Assembly: GCA_023266195.1 (NCBI GenBank)
Contig: JAHFRP010000001.1
Span: 124,001 to 188,000, forward strand
DNA length: 64,000 nt
From: Sulfuricella sp.
Lineage (GTDB): Bacteria > Pseudomonadota > Gammaproteobacteria > Burkholderiales > Sulfuricellaceae
Direction: 5' to 3'
The first letter of the stretch is position 1. The number at the start of each line of letters is the position of its first letter. Below, piece by piece: positions 26,320 to 38,384 of the stretch. The position numbers and the translations under genes are program-made. The notes under the pieces are model-generated. The model was given only the letters and a program-made list of their open reading frames with translations. It searched no databases and had not been told where the DNA came from.

Positions 26320-26653
26320 AATGTCGCTGGCCGAAGGCGTCCTGCAGGTGATCGAGGGCAGCGCGAAGCAGAACGGGTTCACCCGTGTGAAAACGGTGTG
26401 GCTGGAGATCGGCCGCTTGTCCGGGGCGGAAGCCGAAGCCATGCGTTTTTGCTTCGATGCGGTGGCGCAGGATACCCTGCTCCAGGGCGCCCGGCTGGAA
26501 ATCGTGGAAACAGAAGGCCAGGGCTGGTGTCTGAGCTGTAGTCAAACGGTCGCGATCCAGCTACGCTACGATCCATGCCCGTTGTGCGGCGGTTATCAGG
26601 TGCAGCCGACCGGCGGCTTGGAAATGCGGGTGAAGGAACTCGAAGTCGAATAG
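26312..26653 (+). CDS. hypA: Nickel-insertion protein HypA
   Basis: A 113-residue HypA. MHEMSLAE has the nickel-binding His2; the zinc site is CLSCSQ and CPLCGG. It delivers Ni2+ to the large subunit with HypB. It overlaps hupK by 8 bp. About 335 bp of repeat DNA separate it from hypB. Confidence 0.95.
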   Translation: MHEMSLAEGVLQVIEGSAKQNGFTRVKTVWLEIGRLSGAEAEAMRFCFDAVAQDTLLQGARLEIVETEGQGWCLSCSQTVAIQLRYDPCPLCGGYQVQPTGGLEMRVKELEVE

Positions 26654-26715
26654 ACCTAACGATCATGGCGAATCGTCGCCCCGAATCATGAAACAGCAAT
26701 TCGCCCTGACCGTTT

Positions 26716-26795
26716 CCCTCTCCCCGCACCCGCAAGGAGTGTCTCCGCCGAGAGCAGCGGCAAAGCCGCTCGCTCTGGCGAGACGGGAGAGGGGG
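26716..26795. repeat. Modular palindrome, frame GGAGTGTCYCCGCCG...GGCGAGAC
   Basis: Outer arms CCCTCTCCCC and GGGAGAGGGG enclose GGAGTGTCTCCGCCG (26736-26750), a variable hairpin GAGCAGCGGC-AAA-GCCGCTCGCTC, and GGCGAGAC. Its flanking tail (GCTTCGCGAGTTT) recurs at 57607. The same frame with different hairpins occurs in hypF, hoxX and before tsaE. Confidence 0.7.
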
Positions 26796-26830
26796 CGAGG
26801 CCTTGCTTCGCGAGTTTCACGCTAAGAACT

Positions 26831-26957
26831 GTTCAACCGCCGATTAGCGCAGATAAACGCCAATATATCATCGTGCAAGGTCCGCTCTGGACTCTCGCGG
26901 TGAATTGGACTGGAACTTTAACGGTCTGAATGATGCGTGTTAATCGACGGTTAACAG
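26831..26957. repeat. GCCGATTA-type inverted repeat before hypB
   Basis: GTTCAACCGCCGATTAGCGC on the left and GCGTGTTAATCGACGGTTAAC on the right, imperfect arms about 75 bp apart. It shares its arm with 7801-7838 and 37114-37242. With the preceding element it fills the hypA-hypB gap. Confidence 0.65.
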
Positions 26958-26988
26958 TCATTTTGGGATAACCATCAGGAGAACAGGC

Positions 26989-28017
26989 ATGTGCACAGTT
27001 TGCGGCTGCGGCCAGGGCGAAACCACCATCGAGGGCGGGGAACACGGGCATGCCCATACCCACGTGCACGAGCACCCGCACGAGCACGGCGGCGCCGCGC
27101 ACGACCATCCACACGAACATACTCACCTGCACGACCCTGCGTCGGGGCACGACCACGAGCACGGCCATGATCATCCGCATCAGGGCGGCGCCGCGCACGA
27201 ACATAGCCACGAACATGGGCACGAGCACGGCGACCTGCATTACGGCACCGGCATCGCGGGGGCGCACGCACCGGGCGTTTCGCAGTCCCGCATGGTGCAG
27301 ATCGAGCAGGACATCCTGGCCAAGAACAACCAGTTCGCCGCCGCCAACCGCCGCGTCTTTGCCGAGCGCGGCATCTTCGCGCTCAACCTGGTATCGAGCC
27401 CCGGCTCCGGCAAGACCACGCTGCTCACCCGTACCATCGGCCTGCTCAAGGGCAAGGCCGGCATCGCGGTGCTGGAAGGCGACCAGCAGACCAGCCTGGA
27501 CGCGGACCGCATCCGCGCGACCGGCGCCGCCGCGATCCAGATCAATACCGGCAAGGGCTGCCATCTCGACGCCCACATGGTCGGCCATGCGATGGAACGG
27601 CTGAATCTGGCCGACGGCTCGCTGCTTCTGATCGAAAACGTCGGCAACCTGGTTTGCCCGGCGGCGTTCGACCTCGGCGAGGCGCACAAGGTGGCGATCC
27701 TGTCCGTCACCGAGGGCGAGGACAAGCCGCTCAAATACCCGGACATGTTCGCCGCCGCCGACGTGATGCTGCTCAACAAGATCGACCTGTTGCCCTATCT
27801 CGACTTCAAGGTGCCGCTGGCGATCGAATACGCCCGGCGCGTCAATCCCAATATTCAGGTGATCCTCACTTCCGCCGTCAGCGGCGAAGGCCTGGAGGAA
27901 TGGCTGGCGTGGGTCGAGGCCGGCCTGAAGCGGGCGGCGGGGCAGAAAGAGCGCGAAGTGGATGCGCTGAAGCGGCGCGTCGCCGAGCTTGAGGCCGCTT
28001 TGGCCGGGAAGGGTTGA
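26989..28017 (+). CDS. hypB: Nickel GTPase HypB with long His-rich domain
   Basis: A 342-residue HypB. The N-terminal CTVCGCG is the high-affinity metal motif. Residues about 18-98 carry 28 His in E-H/D-H/P-H dipeptides and include two copies of GGAAH(D/E)H, suggesting internal duplication; such tails store nickel. The GTPase has [11 protein letters not shown] (P-loop), [27 protein letters not shown], and LNKIDLL. A charged helix closes the protein. It powers nickel delivery with HypA. CAGGAGAA precedes the ATG. It is coupled to hypF. Confidence 0.97.
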
Positions 28018-30731
28018 CGCCGGTGAGCTTCAGAGTGAAGAGCGAGGAGTCGGGAGTGAGGAGTGAAAACCCTCAGCGCCCGGTTTTTGACCTTACTCCT
28101 TACTCCTCACTCCTCACTCCTGTCGCGGTTCGTATCCGTGTCCGCGGTCAGGTGCAGGGCGTCGGATTCCGCCCCTTCGTCTACCGTCTGGCCGCCGAAC
28201 TGGGCCTCTGCGGCTGGGTGCGCAACGACGCCGACGGCGTGGAAATCGAGGCGCAGGGCGGCGCGAAGGAGATCGAATCCCTGCTCGCCCGGCTCAGGGA
28301 CGAGGCGCCGGTGCTGGCGCGGGTGGACGAAGTGAGCGCGACCCCGGCCGGGATTGAGTCCAACCGGCTCGATTTCTCCATCCTGGAGAGCCGCGCCGGC
28401 CATGCCCATACCGGCATCGCGCCCGACGCTGCCCTCTGCCCGGACTGCCTGGCCGAGATTTGCGATCCCGCCGACCGGCGCTACCGCTATGCCTTCACCA
28501 ACTGCACCCACTGCGGCCCGCGCTACACCATCACCCGCCATCTGCCCTACGACCGCCCCAATACCAGCATGGCCGGCTTCGCCCTGTGCCCGGCCTGCAA
28601 GCGCGAATACGACGATCCGCTCGACCGCCGCTTCCATGCCCAGCCCAATGCCTGTCCGGCGTGCGGGCCGAAGCTATGGCTGGTCGATGCCCCGAAATCC
28701 CCCCTAACCCCCCTTTTGCAAAGGGGGGAAACGGCGGAGGCGCCACTGTTCTCTCCTTTGCAAAGGGGGGAAACGGCGGATGCGCTATCGCTCCCTCTTT
28801 CGCAAAATGGAGAAACGGCAACGGCAGCATCCCTCCCCCCTTTGTCTCGCCGTGGTCGCCGCGAAGCGGCGGGAACCCGGCGGGGACACTCCTCGCGGGT
28901 GAAAAAGGGGGGCTGGGGGGGATTCGACGATCCCATCGCCGCCACCGTCGAGCACCTGCGCGCCGGCCGGATCGTCGCGATCAAGGGCGTCGGCGGCTTT
29001 CACCTGATGTGCGACGCACGCAACCCCGAAGCCGTCGCCCGCCTGCGCCGGCGCAAGCAGCGCGAGGAAAAGCCCTTCGCCGTGATGCTGGCGGGGGTTG
29101 CCTCCGTCGCGCCTTTTGCCGAGTGCGATGCGGTGGAACGGGAGCTGCTGGAAAGCCGCGAACGCCCCATCGTCCTGCTAAAGAAGCGGGCCGAGTGCGA
29201 CGCCGCCCTGCCCGGCATCGCCCCCGGCATGAGCGAGCTGGGCGTGCTGCTGCCCTACGCGCCGCTGCATTATTTGCTGTTCCACGAAGCCGCCGGCCGG
29301 CCGCAAGGCACGGCCTGGCTGGCCGCGCCGCAGGAACTGGCGCTGGTCTGCACCTCGGCCAACCCCGGCGACGAACCGCTGGTGACCGGCAACGACGAAG
29401 CGCTTGCCCGTCTGGCGGACATCGCCGATGCGTTTCTGCTGCATGACCGGGACATTCTGGTGCGCTGCGACGATTCTGTAGTGAGGAGTGTAAAAGCAGT
29501 GAGGAGTGAGGAGTATGGAGTGAGGAGTGAAAACCTCCACAGCGTAGTGAGGAGTGAAGAGTCAGGAGTGAAGAGTAAAAATCTCCACCGCGCCGCTTTT
29601 GACTTTACTCCTCACTCATTCTCCTTCGTCCGCCGCGCTCGCGGCTACACCCCGCGCGCCATCAAGCTGGCGCGGGCGGGACGTTCGGTGCTGGCGGTGG
29701 GCGGCTGGTTCAAGAACACCGTCTGCCTGACGCGCGGCGACGAAGCGTTCCTGTCCCAGCACATCGGCGACCTCGACCATGCCGCCACCTGTCGCAGCCT
29801 GGAGGAGGCCGCGCAGCACCTGATGAATGTGCTGGAGATCGAGCCGGAAATCGTCGCCCATGATCGCCACCCGGATTTCTTCAGCACCCGCTTCGCGGTG
29901 GATTTCGCCGGTGGGCGCGGTATTCCCGCCCTCGCCGTGCAGCACCATCACGCCCACATCGCCGCCGTATTGGCCGAGCACGGCGTGGCCGGGCCGGTGC
30001 TGGGACTGGCGCTGGACGGCGTCGGCCTGGGCGCGGACGGTTCTGCGTGGGGCGGCGAACTGCTGCGGGTGGACGGCGTCCAATTCCAGCGCCTCGGCCA
30101 TTTGAATCCGCTCGCGCTGCCCGGCGGCGACCGCGCCGCGCGCGAACCCTGGCGCATGGCGGCGAGCGCCCTGCATGCCTTGGGCCGGGGGGCGGAAATC
30201 GAACGGCGCTTCGCCCACCCGGCCGGTGCGGCGGTGCGGCAGTTGCTGGAACGCAACGTCAACAGCCCGGCCACATCCAGTTGCGGCCGCCTGTTCGACG
30301 CCGCCGCCGGGCTGCTCGGCGTGCGCGATGCGGCGGCCTTCGAAGGCCAGGCCGCGATGCTGCTGGAAGGGCTGGCCGAGGCGCATGGCCCGGCCGTGCC
30401 GCTCGCACAGGGCTATGTGGTGGAAGCCGACGGCCGCCTCAACCTGCTGCCGCTGCTCGCGGCCTTGAGCGAAATCCGCGATGCCGGCTACGGCGCGGCG
30501 CTGTTTCACGCCTCCCTGGCCCAGGCGCTGGCGGCCTGGATCGAACCCGCCCTGGAAAAAACCGGGTTGAACCGCGTCGCCCTGGGCGGCGGCTGCTTTC
30601 TCAACCGACTGCTCTGCGCCGATCTCGGCGCCCGCCTCGCCGGGCTGGGCGTCACCGCGTACCAGGCGCGCCAGGCGCCCCCCAACGATGGCGGGCTGAG
30701 CCTGGGGCAGGCGTGGGTGGCGATGCAGTAA
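28014..30731 (+). CDS. hypF: Carbamoyltransferase HypF with three repeat-encoded insertions
   Basis: A 905-residue HypF (usually about 750). It transfers carbamoyl phosphate to HypE for CN ligand synthesis. Acylphosphatase [18 protein letters not shown], zinc fingers [15 protein letters not shown] and CPACKRE/CPACGP, a YrdC-like domain, and a Kae1-like domain with [10 protein letters not shown] and [10 protein letters not shown] are all present. Insertions from repeat DNA lie at the N-terminus (28029-28119), after the zinc fingers (28695-28925) and near RCDDSVVR (29484-29624); together they account for the excess. The start is TTG at 28014 (overlapping the hypB stop) or GTG at 28023. Probably functional, since all motifs and the frame survive. 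Confidence 0.94.
28029..28119. repeat. GGAGTGA heptamer inverted repeat in the 5' end of hypF
   Basis: GGAGTCGGGAGTGAGGAGTG on the left and ACTCCTCACTCCTCACTCC on the right. It lies between the start codon and the acylphosphatase domain and adds about 30 residues in frame. Confidence 0.75.
28695..28925. repeat. Composite repeat inserted in hypF after the zinc fingers
   Basis: 231 bp (77 codons). It has a triple 42-bp direct repeat with TTTGCAAAGGGGGGAAACGG at 28715 and 28757 and a decayed copy at 28799, encoding 14-residue units around QRGETA. Then comes the modular frame GTCTCGCCG (28844) - hairpin - GGCGGGGACACTCC. Outer arms are AAATCCCCCC and GGGGGG(A). Confidence 0.8.
29484..29624. repeat. 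GGAGTGA heptamer element inserted in hypF
   Basis: AGGAGTG/GGAGTGA units repeat on the left (29484-29578), with one short inverted arm TTTACTCCTCACTC on the right (29604-29617). It adds about 46 residues in frame between DDSVVR and FVRRARGY, where other HypF proteins have a few residues. Confidence 0.78.
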
Positions 30732-30732
30732 T

Positions 30733-30806
30733 GTAGGTCGGGCACCCCGTGCCCGACATGTTTGATTTTTGTTTGAGTTTTGTCGGGCACGGGGTGCCCG
30801 ACCTAC
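30733..30806. repeat. REPIN between hypF and hypC (TCGGGCAC type)
   Basis: GTAGG-TCGGGCAC-CCC-GTGCCCGA and its inverted copy, with a T-rich loop. The same unit recurs at 32334-32405 and 54948-55023. Confidence 0.85.
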
Positions 30807-30823
30807 ATACCAAGGATTGATTC

Positions 30824-31060
30824 ATGTGCCTGGCCATCCCCGCCCGAGTGGTGGAACTGCTGGAAAACGACGCTGCCCTGATCGATGTCGGCGGCGTGCG
30901 GAAGGAAATCTCGGTCGCCCTGGTTGAAGGCGTGGTCGTGGGCGACTACGTCATCGTCCACGTCGGCTACGCGCTCAACCGCCTCGACCCGGAAGAGGCG
31001 GAAAAAACCCTGGCATTGTTCGCACAAATCAACGCGGAAATGGGTGCGTCGCCAATATGA
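30824..31060 (+). CDS. hypC: Maturation chaperone HypC (second copy)
   Basis: A 78-residue HypC starting MCLAIPARVVELLENDAALI, with the essential Cys2 and VGDYVIVHVGYALNRLDPEEA, the family core. It partners HypD in building the Fe(CN)2CO group. AAGGATTGATTC precedes the ATG. It differs clearly from the HybG-like copy at 21870 and, by position next to hypD-hypE, is the general HypC. Confidence 0.95.
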   Translation: MCLAIPARVVELLENDAALIDVGGVRKEISVALVEGVVVGDYVIVHVGYALNRLDPEEAEKTLALFAQINAEMGASPI

Positions 31061-31079
31061 ACCTGGAAAAAAACATTTG

Positions 31080-31188
31080 GCCACAGAGATCACAGAGGAA
31101 AAACACGTGGTTGTCGAAGTTGTTCTCACCCCATCGGGCGAATGTGAAAACACCCCAAAATCCGCTTTTTCTCTGTGTTCTCTGTGGC
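31080..31188. repeat. CCACAGAG inverted repeat between hypC and hypD
   Basis: GCCACAGAGATCACAGAGGA (+AAAA) and the inverted TTTTTCTCTGTGTTCTCTGT (+GGC), near-perfect arms with a 62-bp loop. It ends about 20 bp before the hypD start. Confidence 0.75.
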
Positions 31189-31208
31189 TTGAACTGAGGT
31201 TTTAAGAT

Positions 31209-32330
31209 TTGAAATACATCGACGAATTCCGCGACGGCGCCCTGGCCCGCAAACTCGCCGCCGACATCCGGCGCGAGGTGCAGCCCGGGCGCAGCTATGC
31301 CCTGATGGAATTCTGCGGCGGGCATACCCACGCCATTTTCCGCTACGGAATCCAGGACTTGCTGCCGGAAAACGTGCGCATGATCCACGGCCCCGGCTGC
31401 CCGGTGTGCGTGCTGCCGATCGGCCGGGTGGACAACGCCATAGAACTCGCGCGCATGCCCGGCGTGATCCTGTGCTCCTACGGCGACATGCTGCGCGTGC
31501 CGGGTTCGGAGCGGGTCAGCCTGTTGAAGGCCAAGGCGGGCGGGGCGGATGTACGCATGATCTATTCTGTCGCCGACGCGCTGCGGATCGCCCAGGAAAA
31601 CCCGTCCAGCCAGGTGGTGTTCTTCGCCATCGGCTTCGAGACCACCACGCCGCCCACCGCCGTGGCGATCCTGCAGGCAGAAAAGCTGGGGCTGACCAAT
31701 TTCTCGGTGTTTTCCAACCACGTGCTGACCCCGTCCGCCATCGCCAACATCCTCGAATCGCCCGAAGTGCGCAAGCTGGGCCTGTTGCCGCTGGACGGCT
31801 TCATCGGCCCGGCGCACGTCTCCACCGTGATCGGCAGCCGGCCCTACGAATATTTCGCCTACGAATACCAGCGCCCGGTGGTGATCGCCGGCTTCGAGCC
31901 GCTCGACGTGATGCAGGCGGTGCTGATGCTGGTGCGCCAGTTGAACGAAGGCCGCGCCGAGGTCGAAAACGAGTTCTCGCGCGCGGTGACGCGCGAGGGC
32001 AACCTCAAGGCGCTCGACATGGTGGCGGAAGTGTTCGAACTGCGCCGCGCCTTCGAATGGCGCGGCTTGGGCCTGGTGCCCTACAGCGGGCTGAAGATCA
32101 AGGCCAAATACGCCGAATTCGACGCCGAGCGCCGCTTCGGGCTGACCTACCGGACGGTGCCCGACAACAAGGCCTGCGAATGCGGCGCGATCATCCGCGG
32201 CGTGAAGAAACCGCTCGACTGCAAGCTGTTCGGCACGGTGTGCACGCCTGAGAACCCGGTCGGCTCGTGCATGGTGTCGTCGGAAGGGGCGTGCGCGGCT
32301 TATTACACCTACGGACGATACAGGAATTGA
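31209..32330 (+). CDS. hypD: Fe-S scaffold HypD
   Basis: A 373-residue HypD using a TTG start (MKYIDEFRDG), with GAGG upstream; no ATG fits the conserved N-terminus. CGGHTHAIFRYG, HGPGCPVCVLPIGR, GFETTTPPTAVA and the C-terminal [4Fe-4S] Cys set (KACECGAII, LDCKLFGTVC, GSCMVSSEGAC) are intact. It assembles CN and CO on iron with HypC and HypE. Confidence 0.96.
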   Translation: MKYIDEFRDGALARKLAADIRREVQPGRSYALMEFCGGHTHAIFRYGIQDLLPENVRMIHGPGCPVCVLPIGRVDNAIELARMPGVILCSYGDMLRVPGSERVSLLKAKAGGADVRMIYSVADALRIAQENPSSQVVFFAIGFETTTPPTAVAILQAEKLGLTNFSVFSNHVLTPSAIANILESPEVRKLGLLPLDGFIGPAHVSTVIGSRPYEYFAYEYQRPVVIAGFEPLDVMQAVLMLVRQLNEGRAEVENEFSRAVTREGNLKALDMVAEVFELRRAFEWRGLGLVPYSGLKIKAKYAEFDAERRFGLTYRTVPDNKACECGAIIRGVKKPLDCKLFGTVCTPENPVGSCMVSSEGACAAYYTYGRYRN

Positions 32331-32333
32331 GCG

Positions 32334-32405
32334 GTAGGTCGGGCACCCCGTGCCCGACATGGGTTGCAGGAGATGAAATTGTCGGGCACGGGGTGCCCGA
32401 CCTAC
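32334..32405. repeat. REPIN after hypD (TCGGGCAC type)
   Basis: Same unit as 30733-30806 with a different loop (GGTTGCAGGAGATGAAATT). It starts 3 bp after the hypD stop. Confidence 0.85.
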
Positions 32406-32411
32406 GAGACT

Positions 32412-32617
32412 AGTAGCTGGTGGCTGGTAGCTTGTAGCAAAAGCAGCGCGCGCTTCGCGCGCACAATCCCGCTACAAGCTACAGGCTACAAGCTACAAGC
32501 TACAGGCTACAAGCTACAAGCTACAGGCTACAGGCTACAAGCTACAAGCTACAAGCTACAAGCTACAGGCTACAAGCTACAGGCTACAAGCTACAAGCTA
32601 CAAGCTACAGGCTACAA
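32412..32617. repeat. Hairpin plus 21-copy heptamer array before hypE
   Basis: A hairpin core GCAAAAGCAGCGCGCGCTTC (+GCGCGC) with inverted flanks AGCTTGTAGC/GCTACAAGCT, then GCTACAA or GCTACAG repeated exactly 21 times at 32471-32617 (147 bp). The array ends 15 bp before the hypE start, so it lies in the hypE leader. The core recurs at 33693-33786. Confidence 0.9.
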
Positions 32618-32632
32618 GCCGGAAAGAGACGC

Positions 32633-33682
32633 ATGACTAACATCAGAAAACCCTACATCCGCCCCCTCGACCTCAAGCACGGTCAGGTGGACATGACGCA
32701 CGGCAGCGGCGGGCGGGCGATGGCGCAGCTGGTCGAGGAGTTATTCCTCGCCGCCTTCGACAACGAATACCTCAACCAGCAGAACGATCAGGCCAGCTTT
32801 GCCGTGCCCGGCGGGCGCATGGTGATGGCGACCGATTCGCACGTGGTTTCGCCGCTGTTTTTTCCCGGCGGCGACATCGGCTGCCTGTCGGTGCACGGCA
32901 CCGTCAACGACGTCGCGATGGCGGGTGCCGTGCCGCTTTACCTTTCCGCCGGCTTCATCCTGGAAGAAGGCTTTCCGCTCGCCGACCTGGCGCGCATCGT
33001 CGAGTCCATGGCGCGGGCCGCTAAAGAGGCCAGCGTGCCCATCGTCACCGGCGACACCAAGGTGGTCGAGCGCGGCAAGGGCGACGGCGTGTTCATCAAT
33101 ACCACCGGCGTCGGCGTGGTGCCGGCGGGGGTCAACATCTCCGGCGAGCGCGCCCGGCCGGGAGACGTCATCATCGTCAGCGGGCCGATCGGCGATCACG
33201 GCGTGGCGATCATGTCGCTGCGCGAGAACCTGAGCTTCGGCACCGCCATTCAGTCCGACACTGCCGCGCTGCACGGCCTGGTGGCGGACATGATCGCCGC
33301 CGTGGCGGATATCCACGTGCTGCGCGACCCGACCCGCGGCGGCCTCGCCACCACCCTCAACGAAATCGCCCGCCAGTCCGGCGTCGGCATGATGCTGCGG
33401 GAAACGGCGCTGCCGATCCGCGCCGAAGTGCGCGCCGCGTGCGAGTTTCTCGGGCTCGACCCGCTTTATTCCGCCAACGAGGGCAAGCTCGTCGCGATCT
33501 GCGCGAGAGAGGACGCCCACGCCCTGCTGACGGCGATGCGGGCTCACCCATTGGGGCGCGAAGCGGCCCTGATCGGCGAAGCGATCGCCGACGACCATCA
33601 TTTCGTGCAGATGGAAACCGCCTTCGGCGGCCGCCGCATCGTGGATTGGCTGACGGGCGAGCAGCTGCCGCGGATATGTTGA
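32633..33682 (+). CDS. hypE: Hydrogenase maturation dehydratase HypE
   Basis: A 349-residue HypE of the PurM fold. DMTHGSGGRAM, ATDSHVVSPLFFPGGDIG and DPTRGGLATTLNEIA are ATP/active-site motifs; the protein ends PRIC, the C-terminal Cys that receives the carbamoyl group and is dehydrated to thiocyanate. GGAAAGAG precedes the ATG. The long heptamer array lies in its 5' leader, without breaking the gene. Confidence 0.97.
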   Translation: MTNIRKPYIRPLDLKHGQVDMTHGSGGRAMAQLVEELFLAAFDNEYLNQQNDQASFAVPGGRMVMATDSHVVSPLFFPGGDIGCLSVHGTVNDVAMAGAVPLYLSAGFILEEGFPLADLARIVESMARAAKEASVPIVTGDTKVVERGKGDGVFINTTGVGVVPAGVNISGERARPGDVIIVSGPIGDHGVAIMSLRENLSFGTAIQSDTAALHGLVADMIAAVADIHVLRDPTRGGLATTLNEIARQSGVGMMLRETALPIRAEVRAACEFLGLDPLYSANEGKLVAICAREDAHALLTAMRAHPLGREAALIGEAIADDHHFVQMETAFGGRRIVDWLTGEQLPRIC

Positions 33683-33786: not shown

Positions 33787-33795
33787 TAATACAAA

Positions 33796-35655
33796 ATGCG
33801 CATCCTATTCCTGACCCATTCCTTCAACAGCCTGGCGCAACGCCTCTACCTGGAGCTGACGGCGCGCGGGCACGAGGTGTCGATCGAGTTCGACATCAGC
33901 GACGCGGTGACGCTGGAGGCGGTGGCGCTGTACCAGCCGGACCTGATCGTCGCGCCTTTCCTCAAGCGCGCGATTCCCGAGGCGATCTGGCGCGAGCGGG
34001 TGTGCCTGATCGTCCATCCCGGCATCAAGGGCGACCGCGGGCCTTCGGCGCTGGATTGGGCGATTCTGAATAATGAAGCCGAGTGGGGCGTGACCGTGCT
34101 GCAGGCCGCCGCCGAAATGGACGCCGGCGATATCTGGGCCGAGGCACGCTTTCCCATGCGCGCGGCGAGCAAGAGCAGCCTGTACCGCAACGAGGTGACG
34201 CAGGCGGCGGTAGCCGCTGTGCTGGAGGCGACGGAGAAGTTCGAGCGGGGCGGCTTTACGCCCGAGCCGCTCGACACCAGCCGGGCCGATGTGCGCGGCC
34301 AGTGGCGCCCGGCCATGCGCCAGGAAGACCGCGCCATCGACTGGCAACGTGACGACACCGCAGCCGTGCTGCGCAAGATCCGCTGTGCCGACGGTTTTCC
34401 CGGCGTGCTCGACGAAGTGCTGGGCCTCAAGTGCTATTTGTACGATGCCCATCCGGCGGAAGGCTTGGCCGGTGCGCCGGGTGAAGTGATTGTTCACGAT
34501 GGCGGCGCGATCTGCCGCGCGACGACGGACGGCGCGGTGTGGATCGGCCATTTGAAGGAAAAGCGCGAGGGCGAGCCGGCATTCAAATTGCCGGCGGAAA
34601 TGGTGTTGGGGGAGAGGCTGGCGGGGATTTTGCGGAGCCAGCCTTTTTGCACGCAAAATCAAATCCCCCCTAACCCCCCTTTTTCACCCGCGAGGAGTGG
34701 CAGCAAGCTGCACTCCGACTTTCTATCGACTAAAGTCGATGAAAGATCGTATGTCCCCGCCGGGTTCCCGCCGCTTCGCGGCGACCACGGCGAGACAAAG
34801 GGGGGGACAGGACACCACGGGCAGGGGTTTTGTCACGACATCCGCTACGAAGAAAAAAACGCCGTCGGTTTTCTCCATTTCGACTTCTACAACGGCGCCA
34901 TGGACACTCAACAATGTGAGCGCCTACTTCATGCCTACCTGGAGGCGGCGCGACGCGACACCAAAGTGATCGTGCTGGCGGGCGGGGCGGATTTCTGGTC
35001 GAACGGACTGCACCTCAACCTGATCGAGGCGGCGGACAGCGCGGCCGACGCATCCTGGGAAAACATCAATGCCATGAACGACCTGGCGCGCGCCGTCATC
35101 GAAACCGACAGCCACGTCACCCTGGCCGCGCTGAACGGCAACGCCGGCGCGGGCGGCGTATTCCTCGCGCTGGCGGCGGACCGGGTCGCGGCGCGCGCGG
35201 GCGTGGTGCTCAACCCGCATTACAAGGCGATGGGCAACCTGTACGGCTCGGAATACTGGACCTATCTGCTGCCGCGCCGGGTGGGCGCGGAGCGGGCCGC
35301 CGCGATCACCGACAATCGCCTGCCCATCGGGGCGTCGCAGGCGCAGGCGTTGGGCCTGATCGACGCGTGCTTCGAGGGCGATGCGGACGAATTCCGGCGC
35401 GAGGTGGAGGCGTTGGCGCAAAAACTCGCTGCCGACGCGCCAGCCTTGCTCGCCGGCAAAATCGAACGGCGCCGCCGCGACGAAGCCGAAAAACCGCTGG
35501 CCGCTTACCGCGCCGAGGAACTCGCCCACATGAAGCGCAATTTCTACGGCTTCGACCCCAGCTACCACGTGGCGCGCTACAATTTCGTCCACAAGGTGCC
35601 GCATTCGCGCACGCCGCGCCATCTGGCGCTGCACCGCAGAATTGGGGGAAAATAA
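33796..35655 (+). CDS. hoxX: CO-ligand enzyme HoxX/HypX with repeat-encoded linker
   Basis: A 619-residue two-domain protein. The N-terminal formyltransferase-like part has IVHPGIKGDRGPSALDW and MDAGDIW; the C-terminal enoyl-CoA hydratase-like part has VLAGGADFWSNGLHLN and LNGNAGAGGVFLALAADR, then GSEYWTYLLPRRVG. HypX makes CO from formyl-tetrahydrofolate for the active site under aerobic conditions. The interdomain linker contains about 50 extra residues from a repeat (34661-34810). No good ribosome site is seen. hoxA follows after 3 bp. Confidence 0.93.
   Translation: MRILFLTHSFNSLAQRLYLELTARGHEVSIEFDISDAVTLEAVALYQPDLIVAPFLKRAIPEAIWRERVCLIVHPGIKGDRGPSALDWAILNNEAEWGVTVLQAAAEMDAGDIWAEARFPMRAASKSSLYRNEVTQAAVAAVLEATEKFERGGFTPEPLDTSRADVRGQWRPAMRQEDRAIDWQRDDTAAVLRKIRCADGFPGVLDEVLGLKCYLYDAHPAEGLAGAPGEVIVHDGGAICRATTDGAVWIGHLKEKREGEPAFKLPAEMVLGERLAGILRSQPFCTQNQIPPNPPFSPARSGSKLHSDFLSTKVDERSYVPAGFPPLRGDHGETKGGTGHHGQGFCHDIRYEEKNAVGFLHFDFYNGAMDTQQCERLLHAYLEAARRDTKVIVLAGGADFWSNGLHLNLIEAADSAADASWENINAMNDLARAVIETDSHVTLAALNGNAGAGGVFLALAADRVAARAGVVLNPHYKAMGNLYGSEYWTYLLPRRVGAERAAAITDNRLPIGASQAQALGLIDACFEGDADEFRREVEALAQKLAADAPALLAGKIERRRRDEAEKPLAAYRAEELAHMKRNFYGFDPSYHVARYNFVHKVPHSRTPRHLALHRRIGGK
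34661..34810. repeat. Modular palindrome inserted in hoxX
   Basis: It starts AAATCCCCCCTAACCCCCCT. The frame GGAGTG...TCCCCGCCG - hairpin CCGC-TTC-GCGG - GGCGAGAC is as in hypF but in the opposite orientation. An extra block, GGCAGCAAGCTGCACTCC plus CTTTC-ATCGAC-TAAA-GTCGAT-GAAAG, sits inside. Related blocks occur at 48730-48915. Confidence 0.8.
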
Positions 35656-38280: not shown

Positions 38281-38384
38281 AGAGAGAGGAGAGAGGAGTG
38301 AGGAGTAAAAACCATGTCACCACGTTGAGCGGGTCGCAGCAGGAGCTTTTCACTCCTCACTCCTCACTCCTCACCCCTTACTCC
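38281..38384. repeat. GGAGTGA heptamer inverted repeat between hoxB and hoxC
   Basis: GAGGAGTGAGGAGTAAAAA on the left and TTTTCACTCCTCACTCCTCA (+CTCC) on the right. Same family as the hypF inserts at 28029 and 29484. It ends 2 bp before the hoxC ATG, so it also shapes the hoxC ribosome-binding region. Confidence 0.8.

Follow-up and report, generated by a model that had tools for sequence, protein, structure and literature searches.

In-frame palindromic repeats in hypF and other conserved genes of Sulfuricellaceae, and their probable turnover at occupied sites

Rickettsia palindromic elements (RPE) are dispersed palindromic repeats of several families that are fused in frame within unrelated conserved genes, and one RPE-bearing guanylate kinase was shown to be translated and active, according to the accounts in PMC2229807 and PMC10969869. 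In the first of these accounts, bacterial miniature inverted-repeat transposable elements (MITEs) with open frames (ERIC/RU-1, the 107-bp form of Correia/NEMIS, YPAL) appear as small repeats with hairpin transcripts and in-frame fusions. Here a stretch of 64,000 nucleotides (the window) was analysed from the Sulfuricella sp. assembly GCA_023266195.1 (contig JAHFRP010000001.1, positions 124,001 to 188,000, forward strand), in which the hydrogenase maturation gene hypF carries three blocks of repeat DNA in frame, termed S1, S2 and S3. The blocks probably reflect an RPE-like, in-frame invasion of tolerant loops in the Sulfuricellaceae, with turnover of unrelated repeat families at sites already occupied. 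As far as RPE are described in those accounts, the likeness lies in dispersed palindromic repeats of several families that stand in frame in unrelated conserved genes; it is a likeness of behaviour. The elements would accordingly work like RPE but are not filed as RPE, the host being a member of the Sulfuricellaceae rather than an intracellular Rickettsia. They also differ from RPE in being often built of heptamers, in reaching several copies per gene, in the succession of unrelated families at the same codon and in a module nested in hairpin tips. Sulfuricella-type sulfur oxidisers are regarded as free-living.

The open reading frame (ORF) of hypF starts with TTG and comprises 905 codons and a stop, with zero internal stops. 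A profile search of the genome identified it as the sole zf-HYPF locus (two domains, E 3.8e-19 and 1.2e-16), and acylphosphatase, two zf-HYPF, YrdC-like and Kae1-like parts are present in order. This single copy is under constraint, with a ratio of nonsynonymous to synonymous substitution rates (dN/dS) of 0.22 over 738 codons outside the blocks, measured against the nearest relative, locus L004. The gene order was read as hypA-hypB-hypF-hypC-hypD-hypE, the neighbours being named from the ORF list and profiles being run on hypF only. Solved full-length HypF proteins have 761 and 772 residues, and the surplus of the window protein lies in three blocks, one N-terminal and two at about residues 229-303 and 490-535. 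Alignment by phmmer with the solved structure 3vth breaks at query residues 224/300 and 490/536, corresponding to 196/197 and 371/378 of the chain. An AlphaFold2 model was built from 48 window and locus sequences (mean predicted local distance difference test score, pLDDT, 81.9; predicted template modelling score, pTM, 0.83). Stretches with pLDDT below 50 were residues 182-185 and three long ones that coincide with S1, S2 and S3 (Table 1); outside them the model has the HypF fold, and Foldseek ranked the solved HypF proteins first, with a TM score by target of 0.91 for 3vth. A search for known RNA families over positions 26500-33000 gave 0 matches at gathering score. An earlier note on this DNA had proposed three repeat-derived, in-frame HypF blocks with intact domains and no stop, and this is borne out by the 905 codons, the gaps against solved structures, the model and the relatives described below.

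S1 consists of GGAGTGA heptamers and their inverted arm. In-frame start codons near it are TTG 28014, GTG 28023, GTG 28035 and GTG 28056, so that about 20 or more element residues would be translated unless the first beta strand were lost. The repeat that the earlier note saw here is real, but as a HypF insertion it is less clear-cut, since it lies at the hypB-hypF junction, is partly common to L004 and has an uncertain true start codon beside it. S2 is a repeat composite, CCCCCCTAACCCCCC...GGGGGG, which measured 229 nt rather than the 231 bp first given; it holds three copies of a 42-nt repeat, the third 64% like the first, and its last tip holds a second palindrome. S3 consists of two tandem GGAGTGA units spaced 48 nt apart and an inverted arm, flanked by modelled strands at residues 489-492 and 536-540. 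Both tandem spacings, 48 nt in S3 and 42 nt in S2, are multiples of three. One of six frames is open in each of S1 and S3, in both cases the frame used, so open frames are not cheap in these blocks. Four of six are open in S2, and the cores of a further family, B, average 5.6 of six. The expectation that palindromes usually give stops therefore held for the GGAGTGA blocks and failed for S2 and for family B.

The check on close relatives named in the earlier note was run on the hypF loci. The nearest, L004 in genome G001 (85% identity in the best segment; 0.857 nucleotide identity over aligned bases), is without any S2, and about 22 nt of its sequence are absent from the window at that point. 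At S3 it retains a left-arm remnant of family A, the GGAGTGA family, followed by a palindrome of family B. The missing sequence at S2 and the remnant with a new palindrome at S3 look like insertion-replacement and turnover; of the three independent insertions first proposed, the repeat blocks stand and the simple insertions probably do not.

Within the window's own family the S3 site, between CDDSV and RRARG, is occupied in 15 of 17 full rows, the exceptions being L019 and L022. Family A was found there in the window, L006, L009 and L010, family B in L004, L007, L008, L017, L018, L021 and the partial row L016, and family C (GGAATGG heptamers) in L005 and L012-L015; family C is present in three genera. 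Outside the window's own family, the site holds family D (GGATGAA heptamers) in L011, family E, to which S2 belongs, in L038, L040 and L090, an A-like GGAGTGG form in L059 (a Rhodocyclaceae record) and three further palindromes in L076, L052 and L054. It is empty or almost empty in L022-L025 and L046, and in L010 one family lies inside or beside the remnant of another. In a survey of 98 distinct HypF proteins from which partial rows were not excluded, inserts of at least 15 residues were present at S3 in 25, with about eight palindrome types by eye; all other internal positions pooled gave 14 row-inserts, of which 7 lie at S2. By eye, 24 of the 25 have either palindromic arms or one of the known families (L088 being the exception). 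A family was assigned to 22, and 21 of these were placed on a HypF tree computed without the inserts, L016 being left off. On this quick tree, which has 7 open forks and on which unassigned or empty rows were scored as 'none', the state of S3 changed at least 14 times over 33 rows and at least 9 times over the 18 near rows, which include one row of another family (L011, G055). The count is if anything low, because the palindromic L052 and L054 were scored 'none', and some of the changes may be recombination.

The repeat families, which were assigned by eye, are dispersed through the genome of the window. Family E has 30 sites of its core CCCCCCTNNCCCCCCTTT and family B (CCCTCTCCCC/GGGGAGAGGG) has 22 copies, with 0 matches to the reversed-pattern control in either case. 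Family A has 17 exact sites of the 14-mer GGAGTGAGGAGTGA; its reversed control gave 13 and is uninformative, because the reversed pattern belongs to the same heptamer array. The families of the hypF blocks are thus multi-copy palindromic repeats, as RPE are. The counts of dispersal covered 17 genomes and families A, B, C and E, with family D and the genomes of L038, L040, L059, L076, L090, L052 and L054 outside them. A or C matched in 13 genomes, B in 16 and E in 8; copy numbers vary and some genomes have none. Core spans, which are mostly 30-90 nt and do not extend over whole elements, had on average 2.6 of six frames open in family A (9 spans), 5.6 in B (21 spans) and 3.8 in E (34 spans). 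Cores of E are mostly 30 nt; of the 21 spans of B, 15 measure 33 or 36 nt and 3 measure 90 nt.

The earlier note had focused on hypF; its blocks are real, but the pattern is not specific to that gene and recurs genome-wide and in relatives. A census of the window's genome covered 60 merged copies of families A, B and E in 51 stretches, hypF and the window E sites 21200 and 34665 being left out. An ORF of at least 150 codons contained 27 of the 60, or 28 of 62 when sites 21200 (no ORF) and 34665 (a HypX-type ORF) are added; some of these are chance ORFs. The 28 copies sit in 26 ORFs, all of which were scanned with Pfam, and genes were named from a reading of their domains. Thirteen copies are flanked on both sides, or spanned, by Pfam domains, in eleven genes: LeuRS, IleRS, MetRS, HrpA (three copies), PurL, MurF, MurB, Lpd, a YgiQ-type radical SAM gene, a lipoyl ligase-DUF116 gene and the HypX-type gene. 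Six precede the first domain (LipB, MurG, SecD, AcrB, RuvX and RuvC types), four lie elsewhere (L156, L160, L170, L175) and five are in ORFs without a family (L137, L152, L154, L155, L165:5291).

The HrpA-type helicase ORF (L147, 1376 codons) has three in-frame copies (B, B and E), and relatives occupy the same sites with other copies. At the IleRS, LeuRS and HrpA loci of 19 related genomes, repeats were found at discrete common sites, several of them with differing families; the list of inserts includes non-repeats (for example LeuRS after 595 and the N-terminal rows), and two loci come from some of the genomes. By eye, HrpA 980 holds E in the window's genome and B in G001, HrpA 687 holds E or B, and IleRS 450 holds E or D. 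In the IleRS of G001, AAATCCCCCC is retained ahead of another palindrome. As with RPE, copies lie in frame within conserved genes whose sites are empty in relatives.

Of the 60 copies, 33 lie outside ORFs; the 16 same-strand neighbour pairs among them (30 ORFs scanned) showed no split gene, the scan leaving out copies whose neighbouring ORFs are on the opposite strand, short or absent. One pair (L130) is two nearly full-length lipid A acyltransferases, and another (L176) has no Pfam family. At L175:1115-2482, on the minus strand, a DUF559 ORF continues in frame via a family E copy into PrmC, possibly a gene fusion made by the repeat.

Table 1. Positions in the window of hypF, its repeat blocks, the nested module and an in-frame copy in a second gene; low-confidence residues are those of the long stretches with pLDDT below 50.
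Feature	Position	Strand	Basis
hypF, carbamoyltransferase of NiFe hydrogenase maturation	28014..30731	+	ORF, zf-HYPF profiles, solved HypF structures as best matches
S1, family A (GGAGTGA heptamer palindrome), hypB/hypF junction	28032..28121	+	repeats; low-confidence residues 1-32
S2, in the linker that follows zinc finger 2; composite of family E (AATCCCCCCTAACCCCCC...GGGGGGATT) in which 42-nt repeats stand in tandem	28696..28924	+	repeats; absent from L004; low-confidence residues 236-304
57-nt tip module T in last hairpin of S2, between CCCCCCTTT and AAAGGGGGG arms	28845..28901	-	locus L255
S3, family A, in hairpin between DDSVVR and F(I/V)RRARG	about 29480..29622	+	repeats; low-confidence residues 498-533
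Family E core, in frame in HypX-type ORF 33790-35652, between formyl transferase and enoyl-CoA hydratase domains	34665..34682	+	core pattern, Pfam

The HypX-type ORF lies near the hyp cluster. Other repeats occur between genes of the cluster, at 30731-30808, 31080-31188, 32334-32405 and 32410-32620; they are GTCGGGCAC palindromes, a CACAGAG palindrome and a GCTACAA/GCTACAG heptamer array. A family A copy also lies at the start of the ORF of the NiFe hydrogenase large subunit, directly after the small subunit (L134, about window 38350-38370).

The preferred explanation is that hairpin-forming dispersed repeats (families A and E and the nested module T) would have entered hypF, presumably moving as DNA. 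The blocks may have survived because the positions concerned, the N-terminus, an inter-domain linker and the tip of a beta-hairpin, tolerate extra residues and the frame stays open; the same process would act genome-wide in the Sulfuricellaceae. A loop filled by expendable sequence could then be a safe harbour in which later families insert into or replace the resident, so that one codon position would change family repeatedly between species. Occupied sites would gather survivors rather than attract insertions, and the long HypF is probably made and active.

The substitution pattern was compared in eight pairs of hypF loci. Core dN/dS was 0.12-0.24 in 8/8 pairs, S1 and S2 being left in the cores of pairs that do not include the window, and on these ratios hypF is evidently under purifying selection. 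In the aligned S3 inserts dN/dS was 0.35-0.82 in six of seven pairs; the eighth pair, the window and L004, has unrelated inserts, and its value of 0.00, which arises because synonymous change is saturated, was left uncounted.

Several observations weigh against the preferred explanation. The insert dN/dS of L007/L016 was 0.04, one of the seven aligned inserts. The S3 insert is less diverged than the hypF core in six of the seven pairs, which does not fit well with inserts that are simply old and drift freely, and part of the turnover at S3 may be recombination between species. The extreme case is again L007/L016 (G006 and G002), in which the insert differs by 7.3% and the core by 23.4%; L016 is at a contig end, and the low value hints that the insert was transferred or that the contig end produced an artefact. 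No transposase was tied to the families in a search that covered PF01797 only, no Y1 match was found at E 0.001 in G005 and G017, which hold many copies, and no target-site duplication was recognised at the LeuRS and S2 sites. Y1 transposase (PF01797) matches were found in 15 of the 17 genomes; the ends of the elements are palindromic and their targets partly replaced. In one relative, the sequence immediately upstream of hypF contains a weak Y1 match (G014:C1:3568328-3568636).

The low divergence of the inserts, together with the presence of family C in three genera, would be expected if there had been few S3 insertions and homologous recombination had passed repeat alleles between species to give the patchwork. 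This is a possible but rather unlikely explanation of the whole: about eight palindrome types imply at least as many insertions, in L010 and L004 an element of one family stands within or next to what is left of another, and L008/L018 show the reverse relation, the insert having diverged by 24.8% and the core by 6.2%.

A further question is whether the sites in genes were chosen by DNA structure, such as target hairpins, and not by protein tolerance. The module nested in S2, T, is palindromic and was found in 26 copies in the window's genome by exact pattern (L241-L266), 24 of them 57 nt (19 codons) long. A stem score of at least 7, indicating that T lies between complementary arms of other palindromes, was obtained for 21 of the 26 copies, compared with 1.9% of 945 control spans, and the hosts were family B, family E or a GTACGGCT/AGCCGTAC-type palindrome. 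Across 16 other genomes there were 109 matches; of the 30 that were read, 3 had no recognisable end and 27 were scored, and 15 of the scored copies reached the same stem score, compared with 2.1% of 955 controls. T is therefore present in the hairpin tips of other repeats above chance, as choice by DNA structure would predict. At sites in genes such targeting was rejected for simple stems: at 11/11 sites in four genes the stems of empty orthologues were about as strong as those at other positions on average, or weaker (mean percentile 0.38-0.55). Choice of these sites by hairpins is thus improbable, and the positions are better explained by survival where the protein tolerates extra residues than by simple hairpin targeting.

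The remnants at S3 of hypF and in the IleRS of G001, and at S3 of L010, suggest that newcomers land in residents. We tentatively propose, while thinking it less likely than not to be correct in full, that a guild of unrelated palindromic repeats may have in common a mechanism by which new palindromes are written into the tips of those already resident. Occupied protein loops would then be the places where newcomers land, and with unit lengths that are mostly multiples of three, essential enzymes could have loops swapped and extended while the frame is kept. The position of T in the tips of other palindromes and the junctions of remnant and new element in hypF and IleRS of G001 support this proposal; the lower stem scores of 5 of the 26 own copies and 12 of the 27 copies in other genomes, and the lack of hairpin preference at gene sites, count against it.

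The recurrent use of one hairpin in many species might also indicate that the blocks serve a function, as loops that were recruited and retained because they bring an advantage such as regulation or partner binding. This is quite improbable given the unrelated peptides encoded by the roughly eight palindrome types at S3, the low model confidence within the blocks, the relaxed dN/dS of most aligned inserts and the almost empty S3 of several relatives (L022-L025, L046). Decay of hypF or assembly artefact is scarcely credible, even though repeats commonly cause misassembly and some relatives are fragmentary metagenome-assembled genomes (MAGs), because the source genome is 100% complete with 0.03% contamination and has hypF within a 538-kb contig, the gene combines a dN/dS of 0.22 with 905 codons free of stops, and Sulfuricella sp. 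T08 (L035, same contig as L006; record not titled as a MAG) has a family A insert at S3.

Among other described systems, the MITEs with open frames differ in that no target duplication and, within the PF01797 search, no parent transposase was recognised for the elements described here. Repetitive extragenic palindromic sequences and their hairpin-forming doublets (REP/REPIN), mobilised by REP-associated tyrosine (Y1) transposases (RAYT), are likewise hairpin repeats in genomes with Y1 transposases, but the Sulfuricellaceae copies are often inside genes, and G005 and G017 carry copies without a Y1 match. The TAACTGA repeats and MITEs of giant sulfur bacteria (Beggiatoaceae, Thiomargarita) are similar in being heptamers in sulfur oxidisers, with a MITE in a hydrogenase gene, according to PMC4853749; however, a title cited in that paper describes the heptamers as intergenic, and the MITE there interrupts hupL, whereas here the frames remain open. 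The mainly open-access literature yielded no account of in-frame inserts of this kind from Sulfuricella or Betaproteobacteria, which is weak evidence of absence, and the peptide string 'GEGWGEG' gave no text match in open-access literature. To our knowledge, the succession of unrelated repeat families at one codon has not been described.

In-frame palindromic invasion of conserved genes is best known from obligate intracellular Rickettsia, and here it is met in essential enzymes of sulfur oxidisers. Odd low-complexity peptides in betaproteobacterial enzymes may accordingly be repeat DNA and not domains. Some Sulfuricella-type sulfur oxidisers are in culture, so the neutrality of the loops, the movement of the elements and the origin of new surface loops in old enzymes could be tested in the laboratory.

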